From a bacterium (lineage in GTDB: Bacteria; Vulcanimicrobiota; Xenobia; Xenobiales; JADMJV01), in the NCBI GenBank assembly GCA_030149525.1, contig JASBRJ010000367.1, forward strand, positions 1 to 32,021: a stretch of DNA of 32,021 nucleotides, given 5' to 3'. Positions 2,652 to 17,626 of the stretch are shown piece after piece (the first letter of the stretch is position 1; each line of letters opens with the position of its first letter). Position numbers and translations under genes: made by a program. Under the pieces are notes generated by a model. The model did no database searches. It was not told the origin of the DNA and saw nothing but the letters and a program-made list of their open reading frames with translations.

Positions 2652-3359
2652 CTACGCTCTCGATTCTAAGAAAAGTTCCGCACTTTTGGTTGGATGACGG
2701 GTTTGTCGTTCCGAAAACAGCGACGCGCGGCTCTCAGGCTCTGTTGTTAAGATGGTCAGCAGGTGACGAGACCCCACGTCCCATTGGCTCAGCATCACTT
2801 CGAATTTCTTCTTAAAGAAGTTGAAGATCACGACTGAGGAGATCGCCACAAGGAGTCCCACCGCTGTTGCGACCAAGGCTTCCGAGACACCGGCAGAGAC
2901 AACCTCAATACCAGCTTTCCCCATCCTGGCCACGTCTGCGAAGGTCTTGGTGATCCCTACAACGGTTCCGAACAGACCAACAAAGGGGGCTATCACGGCT
3001 ATCGTTCCCAAATGAGAGAGGCCTTTTTCCAAATCGATTCGCTCTCGCTCCAGCAGCGTCTCTAGAAAGAAGTCACCCTTGTCCAGTCCTGGATTGTTGA
3101 GGGAGAGCAACTCGCCACAGATTCGTGAGAGCGGTCGATTCAATTGATGCAGATATTCTTGCCATACGGAAGCTTCAAGCTTCTTTTCCAGCATTAAATA
3201 GCGCAACTGATTCAGTAGCCAATCCCCATCCAGTTCGGACCGGCGGACTCTGCGAGAGAGTTCCCAACTGAGAGCGACCATAAAAAACGAACATGCGAAG
3301 AGGACCACTAGAGTGAAGTAGCCGGCCGTCGACATGTGAGAAAGGAGACCGTTTGGCAT
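2652..3359 (-). CDS. MotA/TolQ/ExbB proton channel family protein
   Basis: This 235-residue inner-membrane protein has the three-helix layout of the family: helix 1 at about 11-30, a long cytoplasmic segment, helix 2 at about 118-140 and helix 3 at about 160-185. The central motif APFVGLFGTVVGITKTF and the following GVSEALVATAVGLLVAI are hallmark TolQ/ExbB sequences. TolQ/ExbB pentamers with ExbD/TolR use proton flow to energise outer-membrane processes. Here no ExbD/TolR-like gene is adjacent; the next gene on the strand is an unknown protein. It could therefore be an orphan that borrows a distant partner. The ATG at 3359 has only a weak ribosome site. The 35-residue C-terminal tail is polar and not conserved. 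Confidence 0.92.
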   Translation of the reverse strand: MPNGLLSHMSTAGYFTLVVLFACSFFMVALSWELSRRVRRSELDGDWLLNQLRYLMLEKKLEASVWQEYLHQLNRPLSRICGELLSLNNPGLDKGDFFLETLLERERIDLEKGLSHLGTIAVIAPFVGLFGTVVGITKTFADVARMGKAGIEVVSAGVSEALVATAVGLLVAISSVVIFNFFKKKFEVMLSQWDVGSRHLLTILTTEPESRASLFSERQTRHPTKSAELFLESRA

Positions 3360-3524: not shown

Positions 3525-3605
3525 GACACTTATCCTAGACAAAAGTTATTTTTGCCGTCTGCTCCTCGTCGCTTGAATCAGGGAGGAGCGGCCGAGAGGA
3601 AAGTT

Positions 3606-5105
3606 ATGCAGACCAGCTTTCAGATACCACGTGTTCTCTCACTTAACGTGAATACTCTGAAACCCGCCTCAGCGGTTCAAAGTCAGGAAGACCAGGCAGG
3701 AGATCTTCCTGAGAATATCTCTTACGACGCTCGAGGCTCGGTTCCCGATCACGGGCCGTTGATTCCGAATCCGGCTCATTATCCCGCCCCCTCTCGACTT
3801 CCGGAAAGAAACCCTATGGAGACGACCTGGGGCTTCGGACGATTCGAGAACGCCTACAACGACCAGATCGAGAAGGCTGTGGAAGAGGTTTGGGAACATC
3901 CGGACTATCCGCTTGACCCCCTGACTTTCAAGGCGCTGGTTGCTGCCGAAAGCGCGTTCAAAAAAGACGCTGTCTCTCCCACCGGAGCGGTAGGCCTGGT
4001 ACAGATTACGGGCGGGACCGCCCGAGCCTACGGACTGCGGACTTCGCCCCCGCCGGACGAGCGTCGAGATCCCGACAAGGCGCTTCCTGCCGGAGTGAAG
4101 ATCCTGGCCGACAAACTCACTGTCATCAACCAACCTAATGAGAACGAAGACTACGGCAAGAAAGTTGCGGAGTACTACGCCAGAGAAGGCAAGCCCAATC
4201 CAGAGCAGATGGAAACTCTGGCTCTGGCCGGATATAACGGGGGCGGCTCAACCGTTGTTCGAGCCATGGCCTACGCTATCGAAGATGGTAAAGACCCTCG
4301 TAATTTCGCCAACCTGGTGGCCGAAGACCGTCCAATGACCGAAACCCCGCTCTACAAGGCGATCAAAGACACTTTCGGAGAGCGTTTCGCCTCTGGAAAG
4401 TATCACGAAATGGGTGCCTATCCCGGTCGAATTTACGGCATTGAAAATAGAGAATTCGAGCCTCTCAGAGGTAAGAGGATCATGGTTGACCCTGGACACG
4501 GGGGCGGAGACGCCGGTGCTCGTGGTCCGGAGGGTGCCAAAGAGTCCATGATCAATCTTGGAGTGAGCTTGAAGCTTCGCGACAAACTCGAGGCGCTCGG
4601 TGCCGAAGTGAGAATGACTCGCGACACAGACCGCAAAGTCTCCCACCCCGACGCATCTCAAAGCGAGGAACTGAGAGCTAGAGTTGCCATGGCCAATAGC
4701 TGGCCGGCTCAGGTTTACGTTTCCGTTCACTCGAACTCCGCGGCAAACCCTGCCGCTCACGGTACGGAAACCTACCACAGCCGCAACGCTTCCGAGAAGT
4801 CGAAGGAGATGGCTGCAGCCGTTCATAAGGAAATGGTGGGAGCCACCGGGTTCCGGGATCGCGGCGTCAAGGCTGCCAACTTCCATGTGATCAAGAATAC
4901 CCATATGCCGGCGATTCTGGTGGAAACCGGATTTGTCTCCAACCCCGTTGAGGAAAAGCATCTCACCGACCCGGAGATGCAGGACAAGATGGCTCAAGCT
5001 ATCACTAACGGTGTGGAACAGGTCTTCGGGCTGAACGCAAATCGGGGAGAAGTTTCCTTTGCCGACACAGGAAAGATCATCGAGGCTCCGGTGGAGGCTC
5101 AATAG
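3606..5105 (+). CDS. lytic transglycosylase / N-acetylmuramoyl-L-alanine amidase fusion
   Basis: This 499-residue peptidoglycan hydrolase has two catalytic domains. Residues ~80-215 are an SLT (GH23-type) fold with catalytic Glu115 in AAESAF, GAVGLVQIT and the AGYNGGG motif, which cleaves the glycan strand. Residues ~285-475 are an Amidase_3 (LytC/AmiC-like) zinc amidase with His298 (DPGHGGGDAG), Glu313, His375 (SVHSNS) and catalytic Glu440 (ILVETGFVSN), which cuts the stem peptide from muramic acid. The ATG at 3606 follows GAGAGGA at good spacing; an upstream TTG (3552) is in frame but less likely. No classical signal peptide is visible: the first 80 residues are polar and Pro-rich. Export may therefore need a non-Sec route or lysis. 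It is monocistronic and followed by a strong terminator. Confidence 0.93.
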   Translation: MQTSFQIPRVLSLNVNTLKPASAVQSQEDQAGDLPENISYDARGSVPDHGPLIPNPAHYPAPSRLPERNPMETTWGFGRFENAYNDQIEKAVEEVWEHPDYPLDPLTFKALVAAESAFKKDAVSPTGAVGLVQITGGTARAYGLRTSPPPDERRDPDKALPAGVKILADKLTVINQPNENEDYGKKVAEYYAREGKPNPEQMETLALAGYNGGGSTVVRAMAYAIEDGKDPRNFANLVAEDRPMTETPLYKAIKDTFGERFASGKYHEMGAYPGRIYGIENREFEPLRGKRIMVDPGHGGGDAGARGPEGAKESMINLGVSLKLRDKLEALGAEVRMTRDTDRKVSHPDASQSEELRARVAMANSWPAQVYVSVHSNSAANPAAHGTETYHSRNASEKSKEMAAAVHKEMVGATGFRDRGVKAANFHVIKNTHMPAILVETGFVSNPVEEKHLTDPEMQDKMAQAITNGVEQVFGLNANRGEVSFADTGKIIEAPVEAQ

Positions 5106-11144: not shown

Positions 11145-11240
11145 ATGACCTTTCCCCGTGAGATGCTCGTGCCTTTCTTACTCGGATTTTTCTTCAGTGC
11201 AGCCGCTATCGTCTCGGTATTCGTGTCGGCGACGCCTTGA
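11145..11240 (+). CDS. 31-residue single-span membrane micro-protein
   Basis: This short frame encodes MTFPREMLVPFLLGFFFSAA and then AIVSVFVSATP: a short basic/acidic start and one hydrophobic helix. Its TGA overlaps the TTG start of the next gene in a TTGA junction, the same coupling seen at dapA-aroA, which supports real translation. No strong ribosome site is visible before the ATG. It opens the cassette with the membrane protein and the macroglobulin-like lipoprotein, and it is divergent from hutF across 54 bases. Possible roles are a small membrane subunit or a leader peptide; neither is proven. Confidence 0.5.
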   Translation: MTFPREMLVPFLLGFFFSAAAIVSVFVSATP

Positions 11241-12004
11241 GTCGTGGATTGCTCTATATCTGGGCCGGTCATCTCTGCTGTCTTTGCGGGTTCGAATGGA
11301 GTCGCTTATGGGCGTTCTTCCCGGGAAGTTTTCGGCCGATACCAACCCTCTTATTGACCATGGCTTTTTGCGCGGTGGTCGTTTTCGATCATTGTGCCTT
11401 GCGGGACCGGGCTGGAACCGTTCTGGTCGGTTCGGCGTGGTGCGGTACCGTTCTCTGGCCTCTCATCGACGGTCCTTGGGAGAGTCTGGCTCTGATCTTG
11501 GCAGGTGGGTTGCTTGTGCTTTCGCAGCTCAGAGGACGTCAAGTGGTGTTCAATCTTCTTTGGCTCTCGGTGGTAGTGACGTCTGTTGTTGTCCAGGTTT
11601 TCCCCCAATGGTTTCTTGGGACCCTGTTAACGCTTGTGAGTGCTGTTGAAATTTACGTTCTGAGTCGTAGGGAGCCGGAACTCAAGCCTCTTCCCGACCC
11701 AGACGACGGTCCTCCTCGCGCGGAGATCTACTGGTTGGGCTTCGCCCAGGTGTACGCCTGTTCGGCCAGTGGAGAGGGGGAAAAATTCAGCAGTCGGGTG
11801 TTAAAAGATACCATGAAGATGATCGACGACTGTGAAGGATGTCTGATAAGAGGCTCCGAGCACAGGGGGATCTACACTTTCCCCACCAGAGAATACCGTG
11901 AACAGTGTCACAGAGTGCTCTCGGCCTACGGAAAGCAGCTGGAAGAGGTTCTCAACAAGGCACAGGCTCCTACCGTCTCGCTGGTGTTTAAAGCGGAAAA
12001 CTGA
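11237..12004 (+). CDS. multi-pass membrane protein with soluble C-terminal domain
   Basis: This 255-residue protein has about five hydrophobic segments in residues 1-145, an acidic Pro-rich linker (EPELKPLPDPDDGPP), then a cytosolic domain of ~105 residues. The family is not recognised. The tail has alternating strand/helix character with ARG-free motifs DDCEGCLIRGSEHRGIYTFP and REQCHRVLSAYGKQLEE. That layout faintly recalls a degenerate class III nucleotide cyclase core (glycine loop, short strand, Phe, helix), but the metal-binding Asp residues are not evident, so no catalytic claim is made. The start is TTG at 11237, coupled by a 4-base overlap to the micro-ORF upstream. The macroglobulin-like gene follows after 24 bases, so the two products may act together at the inner membrane. 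Confidence 0.72.
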   Translation: MSRGLLYIWAGHLCCLCGFEWSRLWAFFPGSFRPIPTLLLTMAFCAVVVFDHCALRDRAGTVLVGSAWCGTVLWPLIDGPWESLALILAGGLLVLSQLRGRQVVFNLLWLSVVVTSVVVQVFPQWFLGTLLTLVSAVEIYVLSRREPELKPLPDPDDGPPRAEIYWLGFAQVYACSASGEGEKFSSRVLKDTMKMIDDCEGCLIRGSEHRGIYTFPTREYREQCHRVLSAYGKQLEEVLNKAQAPTVSLVFKAEN

Positions 12005-12028
12005 ACTCCACGGGAGAACGCTTACCTC

Positions 12029-15000
12029 GTGGTGCGAGCGGCACGTTTATCGATCTTTCTTTTCATGGCACTCCTGTTGAGTGCCTGTCAGCCCTATCTC
12101 GATCACGGAGCGGAGCCGATGGAGTGGGAGGCCGGTAAGGTCGACTTCGGAACTCGACGAAGCCTCCGGATGGTGGACTATTCTGGAGATCGAGAGCGAT
12201 TGATCTTGGAGTTTAACCAACCTTTGCATCTACCGGAGTCGGAAGGTGACAAGCCACCGTTCGCCATCAAGATCCTCCCTAAGACCGGGATTTCGGAAAT
12301 CAAATGGGTGGGGGTGGCGGGAGTGGAAGTGGTCTTCTCTGAGAAACTTCCACCGGCCCGGCGGTACCTGGCGCAGATTCCTGCCGGATGGCGTGCGCTC
12401 ACCGGGGCTTCTCTACTCCGTCCCATTGAGCTGGAATGGGAGACCGAAAGGCCGAGGTTATTAGAGGTGAACCGGGTGGAAGATCCCTCACACCCCGAAA
12501 TACTCAGGTTTCAGTTGGACTTTAATCAGCCGGTAGATATCGAATCGGTGAAGGAGACGCTGACGGCGCAGTCCTCCGGGGCAAAGCAGGCTTTTGCTTT
12601 CCAAGACTGGCAACAAGTTGAAGGACAGGCTTCGGTTCAGGTCTCCATTCCCGGTCTTGGCCCTTTTCAAAGTTTTGAGCTGAAGGTGGCTCCCGGCCTT
12701 CGTTCATTGGACGGAGGACTGGAAGGAGAGGGTGGGGAGACGTTTTCACCGGGAGCGCCTCCAAAGTTTCATTTCACGGCAGAGCGGGTGCAAAAACTGG
12801 AACCGGACGATCCTGTCTCCCTTCAGTTCTCGGAACCGGTAGAACGGGAGGAGTTGAAGCGACACCTTCACGGCGTGGACTGGAATTCGGCCTATCTTTT
12901 CAGTCCCGACGGTCAAAACTACCAACTTCACTGGGTGGAGGAGCGAATTCTCGGGACGAAACCGGCTCACCTCACTCTGCTTGGAGATCTCACCTCCCTC
13001 AAGGGTTCTCGCCTCCATCAGGATATCGATATTCTCATAGCGCGACCGCAGGCAAAGTTGACTTCTTCCGCTCGAGTGCTTCGACAGTGCCAGCTTTTAA
13101 AACCGGGGGAGACTACCCTTAAACAGGTCGCTTCGAAAGAAAGTCTAATCAAGACTTGGAAGCTGACTCCCGGCCAGGCTGCTCGCCTTCTCCTGATTTC
13201 TCCACAAGCCTGGCGCAGCAAAGTGCCGCTGGAGCTCGAAAAGCAGGCGCCGATCTATCAACAGGAAGTGAAGAAGGCGTTTCCAGCGACGCGATTTCTG
13301 AACAAGGAGGGATGGAGCGACAAAAACCGGTTCGGACTCTTTCTGGTGCGCGTCTCGGAAAAGAACGGGAAAACTCGCCGAAGGGTGGTGGCGCGAACAG
13401 ATAGCTCCGTCGACCATTCTTCCATTAACGGGGACGTATTCTGCCATGTGGAGGGCCGCCAATCCGGACTGGCCCGCGGTGGCGCGAAAGTTGTCGCCCT
13501 CGACGGCCAAGCGCGCCCCTTGCGGGAAGTGGCCACCGATGGAGTGGGGGAGGCTCGTTTCCAAGGTCCTTGGTTTGAGATGCCGGTTTTTCTGCAGGTG
13601 GGATGGGGTGAGGACCAACTGATCCAAGGGTTACGGCCTCTGCAAGTCACGGCCCCCGATCTCTTGCCTGGCTTAATTTGGGCCGACAGTCCGGTTTACG
13701 AGCCTGGGGAGAAGGCAGAGTTTTTTGGACTCTGGTGGAGTACCTGGCCTCGCCCCGAAGTCGTTCTTGTCGGACCCGAGGGGCGTCCTCTAGAAACGAG
13801 AGTGACTTCGGTAGCCGCCTCCGGGCAGTTCTTTCGAGGCGAATTTGAGGTCCCCCGAGAGGTTGGAGACTACTTTCTTAAGCTACCGGTCGTGAACAAC
13901 TCGGTGCCTAGCTTCCCGTTCAAGGTGACGGAGCCCACAGGAGGCCCAAATTCGCCTTCGGAACTCTCCCTTGAGAAGGACCACGACGGGTCTTACAAAG
14001 GGCAATATCGATGGGTCGGTCCAGGAGGGGCACATCTGGATGTCCGGGCCACCCTGCGCTACCGCGACCAAGGGCCCAACTTCTGGCGGAGAGTCATTCT
14101 GCATCAACCAAAATGGATACCCGTCGAAGTGAAACTTCGTCAAACACTGGAGGGAGGTACCTTCGAACTCGGTTCTCTCCCTGAGGTCTTCGGGCCCTGG
14201 GAACTCCTAGTGGAACTGTTTGATACCAGAGAGCCTGGCCGGGTTTTTCGCAGGCGGTCGGTCAAGTTGGAAGAGGCCGCTCTGATCTTGGAATCGGGTG
14301 AACTCAAGCATGTTTCGTCCAACCAGCGAAGGGCACGCTTTCGCTTTCGCTTCCGAGATGGGCAGAACGGTCCCGGGCGAAATCTTCAATGTCGCCTTCT
14401 CTTGAAGAAACCAGGAAGTGCCGAATGGCAAACCCTCAACTCCGAGACTGTCACTTGGAAAGAGTCGGCTTACGAATGGCAGACGACTCTTCGTGGAAAC
14501 GGACGGTTGCGACTGGAGGTTCTGTGGACTCCACCAGGCAGTGAGATCGCCGAAGTTTCGAATTGGGAACGGAACCTGGCACCGGACTCCTTGGCAAGTC
14601 GAAAGCCCCTCAGCTTGTCGGAGGAGGTCTTTAATCCCGGACGACCCGTTGCTTTGAGTTGGCCGGGGCTAGCCAAGGGAACCCCGGTATGGCTCGAAGT
14701 CATTTCCGGCCAGGGCCGAATTTTTCATTCCCGGAGGGTGACAGACTCAGAGGGCCGTTTGGGGGAAATCGATTTGGGTCCGGTCAACCCAGGTTGTCGT
14801 GAGGTTGTCCTTGTGGCTCAGGCCGGTGGGCAGGTAAGAGCCAACCGTGTGGACGTGGTAGGGGGCACCGACTTCTTGGATGCCGGTCTTGAGGTGAACG
14901 GAACCCAGGGCGAGGAGGTGGAGGTTGGTCCAGGGCAGAGAATAGTGGTGGAGCCTCTCTACCAGAAGGCCGGACTGAGTCGCGGAGTACTCTGGTGGGA

Positions 15001-16282
15001 GGCCGGCGAAGGGGAAGTGAGGTCCGGCCCCTCGGCGACCCTTCTGCAGAAGATGATCGAGAGCACCAAGAAGAGTGGTGTTACCATCCATGGCATACCT
15101 CGGATGCCCATCTTTGGTCCCCAGGAGCTGCCCGAGGGAGGTCGGATAAGCTTACAGGCCCCCTCTCAGCCTGGCCGGTACAAGCTTCTTTTCCTGGCCG
15201 AGGACGCAGAAAAGACGATCGTTTTCGGGGAGCAACTTCTACAGGTTACCGAGTCCGCCCGGTGGGAGGTGGTGAGGCCTCCTCAACTGAGACCCGGAGA
15301 TAAATTCTCTGCAGGAGTTCGCTTCTGGTCCGATCCGGAGAGCACCGGTCCAACCGGTGCGAACACAACCGTTCAGCTCTCTTCGACTCTCCTTCCGGTT
15401 TCTTATTTCAGCACCAACGCCCTGGTCGACCCTGGCTCTACCGGTGATATGCTTTTTTACTATCAGATGCCGAAATTCATCGCGGCCGGGGAAGTAGAAC
15501 GATTTCGATTGATGTGGGAGTTGGGAGTTGAGGGTGAAGGGCACGAGGTTTCTACCACCCTTCATGCGCTCCCCACAACCTCGGAGAGCGTTGTCTACCG
15601 TGAGGGCATCCTGGCGGAAGGTCAGGGGCTGCGATTAAACCTCACCGGTCTCGAGATGTGGGAGCTAGAGTTCAGTAAAGACGGTTTGCCGGGGGACCCC
15701 TCGGTTCTCACCCTTTTGGGTGTGGAGAAAGAGCCGATCACGATAAACCTCGGACCGGAGGCGAGCCGTCGAGAATTCTACGGTCAGGGAAATGCGCGCC
15801 TTGAGCTTCGCCATTTGAGCGGGAGTGAGGTCCGTCTGAAGGTCTTCCGACTTAAGCCAACCCGGCTCCAAGAGGAGCGCCAGGCTCAAAGCCTTTACTT
15901 GCTCCGTCATTTGGAGACCCGCAACGGAGAGGAAGTGGGCTCGGATCGTTTGGAGATGGGGGGAGAGTATCTTTTGACCCATCATCTGGTCGTTCCAGAA
16001 CCTCTGTCTTCGTCTCTTCTGAGCGTTCCCATACCAGGCGGGTTGGAGCCTCATGGCTGCTGGATTCAGAACTTAGGCGACGGCTACACACCGGTCGGCT
16101 GGAGTCGAGAGAACGGACTCGTCAAGATCCAGCTGCCTTCCTTGCAGGAGGGGGAGAAGCGGGTGTTAGTCGCTGTGAAATCTGTGGTGAGCGGCGACTA
16201 TTTGTGGCCTGCATCGGTGGTCCACTCTCCGTCGGGTACCACGGAGGCCACAACTCTGGCTTCCAGAGTGACCATCAGATAA
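12029..16282 (+). CDS. alpha-2-macroglobulin-like lipoprotein lacking thioester domain
   Basis: A 1417-residue lipoprotein: the signal peptide ends in LLLSAC with lipidated Cys20. Residues ~30-370 hold repeated Ig-like domains with EFNQPL, DFNQPV and QFSEPV motifs. Residues ~470-560 show a carboxypeptidase-regulatory-like or MG strand pattern (ATDGVGEARF), and ~549-570 the MG2-type PVYEPGEKAEFFGLWW. RPPQLRPGDKFSAGVRF (~1082) resembles the segment before the thioester domain in bacterial macroglobulins, and the last ~120 residues resemble their final MG domain (PIPGGLEPHG, then GDYLWPASVVHSPSG). Between these, no alpha-helical thioester domain or CGEQ-type motif is seen. Bacterial relatives trap proteases in the periplasm. 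This one would have to work without covalent capture. The GTG at 12029 is 24 bases after the membrane-protein gene, with GGGAGA upstream. Confidence 0.8.
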   Translation: MVRAARLSIFLFMALLLSACQPYLDHGAEPMEWEAGKVDFGTRRSLRMVDYSGDRERLILEFNQPLHLPESEGDKPPFAIKILPKTGISEIKWVGVAGVEVVFSEKLPPARRYLAQIPAGWRALTGASLLRPIELEWETERPRLLEVNRVEDPSHPEILRFQLDFNQPVDIESVKETLTAQSSGAKQAFAFQDWQQVEGQASVQVSIPGLGPFQSFELKVAPGLRSLDGGLEGEGGETFSPGAPPKFHFTAERVQKLEPDDPVSLQFSEPVEREELKRHLHGVDWNSAYLFSPDGQNYQLHWVEERILGTKPAHLTLLGDLTSLKGSRLHQDIDILIARPQAKLTSSARVLRQCQLLKPGETTLKQVASKESLIKTWKLTPGQAARLLLISPQAWRSKVPLELEKQAPIYQQEVKKAFPATRFLNKEGWSDKNRFGLFLVRVSEKNGKTRRRVVARTDSSVDHSSINGDVFCHVEGRQSGLARGGAKVVALDGQARPLREVATDGVGEARFQGPWFEMPVFLQVGWGEDQLIQGLRPLQVTAPDLLPGLIWADSPVYEPGEKAEFFGLWWSTWPRPEVVLVGPEGRPLETRVTSVAASGQFFRGEFEVPREVGDYFLKLPVVNNSVPSFPFKVTEPTGGPNSPSELSLEKDHDGSYKGQYRWVGPGGAHLDVRATLRYRDQGPNFWRRVILHQPKWIPVEVKLRQTLEGGTFELGSLPEVFGPWELLVELFDTREPGRVFRRRSVKLEEAALILESGELKHVSSNQRRARFRFRFRDGQNGPGRNLQCRLLLKKPGSAEWQTLNSETVTWKESAYEWQTTLRGNGRLRLEVLWTPPGSEIAEVSNWERNLAPDSLASRKPLSLSEEVFNPGRPVALSWPGLAKGTPVWLEVISGQGRIFHSRRVTDSEGRLGEIDLGPVNPGCREVVLVAQAGGQVRANRVDVVGGTDFLDAGLEVNGTQGEEVEVGPGQRIVVEPLYQKAGLSRGVLWWEAGEGEVRSGPSATLLQKMIESTKKSGVTIHGIPRMPIFGPQELPEGGRISLQAPSQPGRYKLLFLAEDAEKTIVFGEQLLQVTESARWEVVRPPQLRPGDKFSAGVRFWSDPESTGPTGANTTVQLSSTLLPVSYFSTNALVDPGSTGDMLFYYQMPKFIAAGEVERFRLMWELGVEGEGHEVSTTLHALPTTSESVVYREGILAEGQGLRLNLTGLEMWELEFSKDGLPGDPSVLTLLGVEKEPITINLGPEASRREFYGQGNARLELRHLSGSEVRLKVFRLKPTRLQEERQAQSLYLLRHLETRNGEEVGSDRLEMGGEYLLTHHLVVPEPLSSSLLSVPIPGGLEPHGCWIQNLGDGYTPVGWSRENGLVKIQLPSLQEGEKRVLVAVKSVVSGDYLWPASVVHSPSGTTEATTLASRVTIR

Positions 16283-17626
16283 TCATTGGTCCCGAGTATC
16301 TCGAAAGTAGGCGATAAATCCACGTCGATCCGCAAGTTGGCGACGAAACTGCTTTGCGTTGAGAGCAGCTTTACGAGTTTTTTGTGTGGTGTGTTCTAGG
16401 AAAGGTTCCACGATAGGGCGGAGCGGACCGAGCATGCAACACCCAAAAAGAAAATGGACGGCGTCTTCGGGCGTAGAGAGCTTGGTAGCCCGATAAACGG
16501 GAGGATTGTTGTCGACGAAATCGTTGATCATCTCTTTCCAAATGGGGATCACTCGCTCTCGATCCAGCTCAACCGCTTGGGAAATGACGACCTTCAATCC
16601 GGTGATGTCGGTCTTGATCTCACTGCCCTCAAGAATAGCAAAGGCGCCACCTCCGGCATCGTGCAGTTCGAGCGGCTCCGTGAGGACTCCGTCTTTGACA
16701 TAGAAGAGTTTAGAGACGCCGTAGAGATAAACCGGTATTCCGTAGACCGCACTAAAGCAGCAGGTTTCTTGCAGCGGCAGCTCGGCAAAGGGGCATTGGA
16801 GACGATTCACCGGTGGGAGATCCGGCTCAAGCAGGGTCAACTCGGGTGGCAGTTCTTTTCGAAAAGAGATCGTCGCCTCGGCCTTTGGCTCACAATGCCA
16901 CCGGAGCAACGTGTCTTCGTTTGTCTCGAAACGGAGCGAGCCAAAGTAGAGGCTGGTGTGTTTTCGGACAGTATCGGTCAGATGCGAGGCCAGAGGAAGG
17001 TAGGGGGTCAGGAGTCGACCGTTGAGGTAGATCGCCGCGGAGGAAAAGCTACACCGTTCTGCGAGCGTTCTTTTCTCTGGTGAGGTCAAGCTATGGACGA
17101 CGCTTTGGCCTTCCGTGTTCTTCGTGAGGTAGAGAAGATGGAGTCGGCGGTCCGGTGCCAGCGGCTCTGTTCGTGGAAACGGTACTGCACGAAAGAGTTC
17201 TGATCGACCGTGTCCCAGGCTCAAGATGATGTCGGTGCTTGCCCCGTCCCAATCTCCCCACATCAGTTCTATCGGTTGGCTTCCGGCTAAAGCACACAGC
17301 GCCATGGAAAGGTGGGAGCGTGCGCTGTGTCGCTCTTCCAGCGGGTTGAGGAGAGCCCTTGTCAGGTTGTCCACAGAGAGGCTGTCGTCTGTTCTGGGCA
17401 CTTCAAAGTAGACAAGAACCGTGGAGCGGGTGATTTCGATATTGAGTCTTTCGACACCGAGAGAGCAAACGCACTGGACGACTTTCAAGATGTAGTCTTC
17501 CGGATTGGCGAGGCTATATGTACTCAGCTTATCCCGGGCCTTTTCAATGGCCAGGGTGAAGGAGCCGGCAGATTCAACCTGGCCGGCCTGTCGTTGTTGC
17601 TCTATATACGCCCCGATATCGTTCAT
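16283..17626 (-). CDS. GHKL/HSP90-like fold protein of unknown function
   Basis: This 447-residue soluble protein begins with a segment resembling an HSP90/GHKL ATPase entry (SFTLAIEKARDKLSTYSLAN, then PEDYILKVVQCVCSLG). There, the helix that usually carries the Mg-binding Asn box reads ILKVVQCV. No DxGxG box is recognised, so ATP binding may be lost or different. The C-terminal ~150 residues are helical with conserved-looking Cys pairs (ETCCFSAVYG, FLFGCCMLGPL). No signal peptide or membrane helix is present, so it is probably cytosolic. The ATG at 17626 follows a hairpin. Its stop codon abuts the stop of the convergent macroglobulin gene with no intervening base. The assignment is tentative and rests on visual pattern. 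Confidence 0.7.
   Translation of the reverse strand: MNDIGAYIEQQRQAGQVESAGSFTLAIEKARDKLSTYSLANPEDYILKVVQCVCSLGVERLNIEITRSTVLVYFEVPRTDDSLSVDNLTRALLNPLEERHSARSHLSMALCALAGSQPIELMWGDWDGASTDIILSLGHGRSELFRAVPFPRTEPLAPDRRLHLLYLTKNTEGQSVVHSLTSPEKRTLAERCSFSSAAIYLNGRLLTPYLPLASHLTDTVRKHTSLYFGSLRFETNEDTLLRWHCEPKAEATISFRKELPPELTLLEPDLPPVNRLQCPFAELPLQETCCFSAVYGIPVYLYGVSKLFYVKDGVLTEPLELHDAGGGAFAILEGSEIKTDITGLKVVISQAVELDRERVIPIWKEMINDFVDNNPPVYRATKLSTPEDAVHFLFGCCMLGPLRPIVEPFLEHTTQKTRKAALNAKQFRRQLADRRGFIAYFRDTRDQ

Follow-up and report, generated by a model that had tools for sequence, protein, structure and literature searches.

In the stretch of bacterial DNA analysed here (the window, 32,021 nucleotides in all), the last of three closely spaced open reading frames, gene 3, is to judge from its sequence a very divergent bacterial alpha-2-macroglobulin (A2M)-like lipoprotein of 1417 aa from which the entire thioester domain (TED) has been lost. 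This loss is the main point of our analysis and was missed by the original prediction for the locus. The worthwhile result is the TED-less form of macroglobulin, which probably originated two or more times within a single family. The bacterial macroglobulins described so far either carry a thioester (type I) or are thioester-less (type II), and in the part of the literature that our searches covered we found no description of a TED-less macroglobulin in bacteria.

The identification of gene 3 (12029-16282, plus strand, GTG start) as a macroglobulin-like lipoprotein, as originally predicted, is borne out by a lipobox, a colinear alignment with full-length A2Ms and a match to the bMG10 domain. 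The lipobox, LSAC at residues 17-20, follows a hydrophobic stretch (by inspection) as in the signals of bacterial lipoproteins, and on sequence and hydropathy the predicted lipoprotein signal peptide, VVRAARLSIFLFMALLLSA-C20, is encoded at 12029..12088 (+). The residue at +2 is Gln, although outside the Proteobacteria the presence of Gln after the lipid cysteine is little guide to membrane sorting. When gene 3 was compared by hhalign with a profile of eight full-length A2Ms from the same phylum, residues 5-686, i.e., the N-terminal half, proved colinear with profile positions 65-806 (E 4e-16), and weaker, short stretches of alignment were found at residues 1025-1190 (the pre-TED region) and 1289-1397 (MG10). 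The Pfam profile for bMG10 matches residues 1288-1398 (15890..16222, +) with an E value of 9e-4, below the Pfam cut-off in the scan of the window, in which a weaker bMG3 match was also seen; taken with its neighbouring segments the bMG10 match reaches 27 bits, above the cut-off. Together, the hhalign and bMG10 results point to the ordered MG domains and C-terminal bMG10 that characterize the A2M superfamily. Past residue ~690 the domain matches are individually weak, the C-terminal half being very divergent, and an AlphaFold2 model of residues 801-1417, computed with no alignment as input, was too poor to use (pLDDT 37.5). By hhalign, multiple alignment and domain spacing, the MG domain equivalent to A2M (PF00207) would lie at residues ~1027-1119 (15107..15385, +) and the bait-region position at residues ~981-1026 (14969..15106, +), where a weak alignment leaves ~45 residues that include several Lys/Arg and the survival of a bait region is uncertain.

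The A2M superfamily typically has a TED inserted in the CUB domain before MG10, and it is here that gene 3 departs from its relatives. The A2M-to-MG10 spacing is 427-463 aa in the eight relatives, as compared to 168 aa in gene 3 (15386..15889, +), so that the stretch that holds CUB and TED in the relatives is occupied by a remainder that is at most CUB-sized and could correspond to a CUB remnant. The thioester motif, CXEQ, occurs in all eight relatives and is absent from the whole of gene 3, the A2M-MG10 stretch included. Profiles of the TED and of the two segments that flank it were built from the relatives' A2Ms; the TED profile failed to match gene 3, its hits in the rest of the window were all above E 2, and the best window matches of the two flanking profiles, which are weak (E 0.14-0.18), both fall in gene 3. 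A deletion created by misassembly is unlikely, because the identity of gene 3 to its relatives is only ~20% over the whole protein. Lacking both CXEQ and the TED, the gene 3 product cannot trap proteases through a thioester.

A survey of the same spacing in 60 A2M/MG10 pairs from 19 related genomes gave a median of 457 aa and a sole other short case, of 149 aa, in a 1421-aa protein (G005:C214, at L067:6718-10980) from the same family as the source genome. This protein has matches to MG2, A2M and MG10, a weak match to the bait region and none to the TED profile; the TED-less form thus appears to recur. A CTEQ in this protein was considered as a possible thioester motif and rejected, since it sits upstream of the A2M domain. 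G005:C214 resembles gene 3 in being TED-less and differs from it in A2M subtype: it groups with the C89 A2M of the source genome (support 100/99), apart from gene 3, which suggests that the TED was probably lost twice in this family, although with both proteins on long branches two separate losses are likely rather than proven. Its listed start shows no obvious signal peptide, unlike that of gene 3, and it lies among unrelated genes, including a PIN-domain gene, with no multi-pass neighbour like gene 2.

Other unusual A2Ms were encountered among the relatives. Long ORFs of G010 and G013, in which CXEQ is not in the right place, were considered as TED-less candidates and set aside; they retain A2M, TED and MG10 matches and are therefore type II-like. 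The A2Ms of L068, L069 and L070 (1660-1720 aa) are missing CXEQ at the TED position, and those of L068 and L070 combine N-terminal TPR repeats with TED matches, resembling the type II variant. A 1260-aa A2M without CXEQ (G001:C5, at L185:4281-8060) seems, by eye only, to have a reduced helical TED.

Set beside the known systems, gene 3 has features of both types. The PBP1c-paired type I A2Ms (E. coli YfhM/ECAM and S. enterica A2M) likewise have a lipoprotein-type signal, a big MG chain and a C-terminal bMG10, and it is to the N-terminal domains of pbpC-paired A2Ms from its own phylum that residues ~49-332 of gene 3 (12173..13024, +) are nearest (blastp E 1e-12 to 1e-9). Gene 3 differs from type I in having no TED, no CXEQ thioester and no adjacent pbpC. 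With the type II A2M of P. aeruginosa, MagD, it shares the absence of a thioester and the adjacency of a membrane-protein gene (PMC5764988). The membrane protein in the mag operon, MagB, has one predicted TM helix. Type II, however, has lost CXEQ within an otherwise A2M-like chain, whereas in gene 3 the whole TED is missing (PMC5764988); a class defined by an absent thioester in a chain that is otherwise present does not accommodate gene 3. The six-gene mag operon is missing around gene 3, and the comparison of gene 2 with the Mag proteins was confined to Pfam and NCBIfam. MagD can trap a protease without a thioester and depends on the membrane protein MagB for its placement (PMC5764988), and it plays a part in resisting type VI effectors whose target is peptidoglycan (PMC12663445).

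Upstream of gene 3 lie a micro-ORF (11145-11240, 31 aa, ATG start) and gene 2 (11237-12004, 255 aa, TTG start), both also on the plus strand. The stop codon of the micro-ORF (TGA, 11238-11240) and the start codon of gene 2 (TTG, from 11237) share the sequence TTGA, and 24 bases separate gene 2 from gene 3; our re-checking of the coordinates reproduced exactly the compact, co-directional layout originally reported. Genes 2 and 3 have codon scores like those of the remaining genes in the window. A Shine-Dalgarno match of at least 4 bases precedes gene 3 (GGAG, 12 bases upstream) and neither of the other two ORFs, and such matches are also missing from several further genes in the window. No promoter-like site was found in the three-ORF region and terminator-like sites occur there at chance level, a scan that neither proves nor excludes a single transcript. 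Gene 3 is flanked by gene 2 and by a convergent gene for a 447-aa protein, with no pbpC at either side; gene 2 and the micro-ORF are its only co-directional neighbours, with hutF and the 447-aa gene facing away or converging.

From its hydropathy, gene 2 is predicted to be a multi-pass integral membrane protein, with ~6 TM helices (residues ~3-144) followed by a ~105-aa alpha/beta tail that we place in the cytosol because a charged RR follows the last helix. This agrees with the multi-pass protein with an unfamiliar tail that had been predicted, the tail matching no known family. A single-sequence structure model of low confidence consists of 6 helices followed by b-a-a-b-b-a elements, and a Foldseek search with this model returned nothing below E 0.1. 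The b-a-a-b-b-a order raised the idea of a class III cyclase or GGDEF (half-)domain in the tail, which was rejected when the hhalign scores (6.8 and 12.2) fell below the best of 40 shuffled sequences. A search of the PDB with the tail gave no match, nor did searches with gene 2 of Pfam, NCBIfam, PADLOC or plasmids. Neither the 58 relatives nor the 149 genomes of the phylum yielded a convincing homolog: the best match there, in G035 (E 0.006 over 66 residues), runs across a stop codon and does not persuade, and by these searches gene 2 is an orphan.

The micro-ORF product, MTFPREMLVPFLLGFFFSAAAIVSVFVSATP, has one predicted TM helix (hydropathy 2.35). Its codons score +0.17 bit per codon, as compared to means of 0.23 for coding and -0.06 for non-coding frames, and 9% of non-coding windows score at least as high, which for 31 codons is moderate evidence only that the ORF is coding. 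When the mononucleotides of the 210-nt region were shuffled 3000 times, hydrophobic ORFs of 25 aa or more turned up in 0.9% of the shuffles. The micro-peptide of the original prediction is thus upheld as an ORF with coding-like codons and a TM helix, but its status as a separate gene is uncertain: it may encode a small membrane peptide of its own, or it may be the missing N-terminal TM segment that a change of frame has separated from gene 2. The latter, whether through an error of one base in the assembly or through a frameshift of recent date, is a serious possibility, if somewhat short of an even one, and is compatible with the explanation of gene 3 that we favor below. A one-base change at the overlap would fuse the two ORFs and give gene 2 an extra N-terminal TM segment, the codons are coding-like on either side of the overlap, and gene 2 on its own would have to begin at a TTG without a Shine-Dalgarno match. 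Against a split gene, stop/start overlaps such as TTGA are common and serve as functional translational coupling, and since the TTG start of gene 2 overlaps the upstream TGA without a Shine-Dalgarno match of its own, gene 2 is probably coupled in this way.

The explanation that we consider the most probable, while holding it with some reserve, is that gene 3 is a diverged A2M paralog that serves as a thioester-independent, lipid-anchored MG scaffold, with gene 2 possibly holding it. Gene 3 would have diverged from the A2Ms of its genome, keeping the MG chain and the lipid anchor while losing the thioester domain, and as a lipid-anchored chain in the periplasm it would bind non-covalently, as a clamp or decoy for proteases in the manner of type II or else purely as a protein-binding scaffold. 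Gene 2, probably co-transcribed and joined to the TM peptide by translational coupling or by fusion, may be an inner-membrane protein that holds or localizes gene 3, in loose analogy to the holding of MagD at the inner membrane by MagB. Any contact between the products of genes 2 and 3 is conjectural, and it counts against the partnership that nothing comparable to gene 2 accompanies the second TED-less A2M.

A further four A2Ms are encoded in the same genome; they are about 1870-2050 aa long and carry a canonical CXEQ. The one on contig C325 precedes a gene that its Transgly, Transpeptidase and BiPBP_C domains identify as pbpC, and the same arrangement is seen for the nearest relatives of gene 3 in other genomes (judged for L083 from gene order and size alone). 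The yfhM-pbpC arrangement is therefore present in this genome and gene 3, whose best matches are pbpC-paired A2Ms, would be an extra diverged copy. The original prediction had PbpC exchanged for a membrane partner; it was right that gene 3 has no adjacent pbpC, but the A2M-pbpC pair elsewhere in the genome indicates that PbpC has not been replaced. Four intact A2Ms alongside gene 3, the very long gene 3 branch (3.25 vs. a median of 0.88, with its placement in the tree unsure) and the lack of an ortholog in the 149 genomes of the phylum, sister genomes included, would also suit a duplicate of the pbpC-paired type that is degenerating under weak constraint, inactive and with gene 2 as an unrelated orphan neighbor. 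We regard such decay as unlikely, given an intact 4.25-kb reading frame with normal codon usage, the retention of signal peptide, lipobox and domain order, and the further, probably independent loss of a TED within the family, which suggests that the form is tolerated or useful. A search of genomic contigs likewise found no relative of gene 3.

The thioester-independent, lipid-anchored scaffold is also the better reading when set against the conserved three-gene system of the original prediction. The suggested check for the three-gene order in relatives found it here only: there is no second instance in the 149 genomes, which have no ortholog of gene 2 or gene 3, and hutF has different neighbors in sister genomes. 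The pairing of genes 2 and 3 is, on these comparisons, lineage-specific. With the order seen at this locus only, and nothing of the kind beside the second TED-less A2M, the comparisons do not support a conserved system of three parts for signalling or anchoring, and the earlier interpretation as a whole is partly supported. That the micro-peptide and gene 2 anchor the macroglobulin or relay its state to the cytosol accords with the tight layout, the TTGA coupling and the predicted set of a TM peptide, a multi-pass protein with a cytosolic tail and a periplasmic lipoprotein, but is very improbable for a device whose order and gene 2 were found in no other genome of the phylum searched and whose gene 2 tail has no Pfam signalling domain and failed the profile test for likeness to a cyclase or GGDEF domain.

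Gene 3 suggests that a macroglobulin scaffold can be retained without its chemical warhead, and a form lacking the whole TED would, if true, be a natural test of whether the MG scaffold does anything beyond covalent trapping, a question raised anew by the role of MagD in resistance to type VI effectors (PMC12663445). A broader proposal, which we put forward as doubtful, is that such proteins form a third class among the bacterial macroglobulins: the TED would have been removed from CUB on at least two occasions, and the product, anchored by lipid and held by a membrane protein of its own, would be a purely mechanical clamp or scaffold that works without a thioester.

Several other genes in the window may be mentioned. 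The 447-aa protein encoded next to gene 3 (16283-17626, minus strand) has no Pfam match and belongs to a large paralogous family: six related genomes have 14-22 matches apiece, most of them to its first ~215 residues. At 3552-5105 (plus strand) a lytic transglycosylase (SLT) and an N-acetylmuramoyl-L-alanine amidase (Amidase_3) are combined in one protein, near a MotA/TolQ/ExbB gene at 2652-3359 (minus strand).
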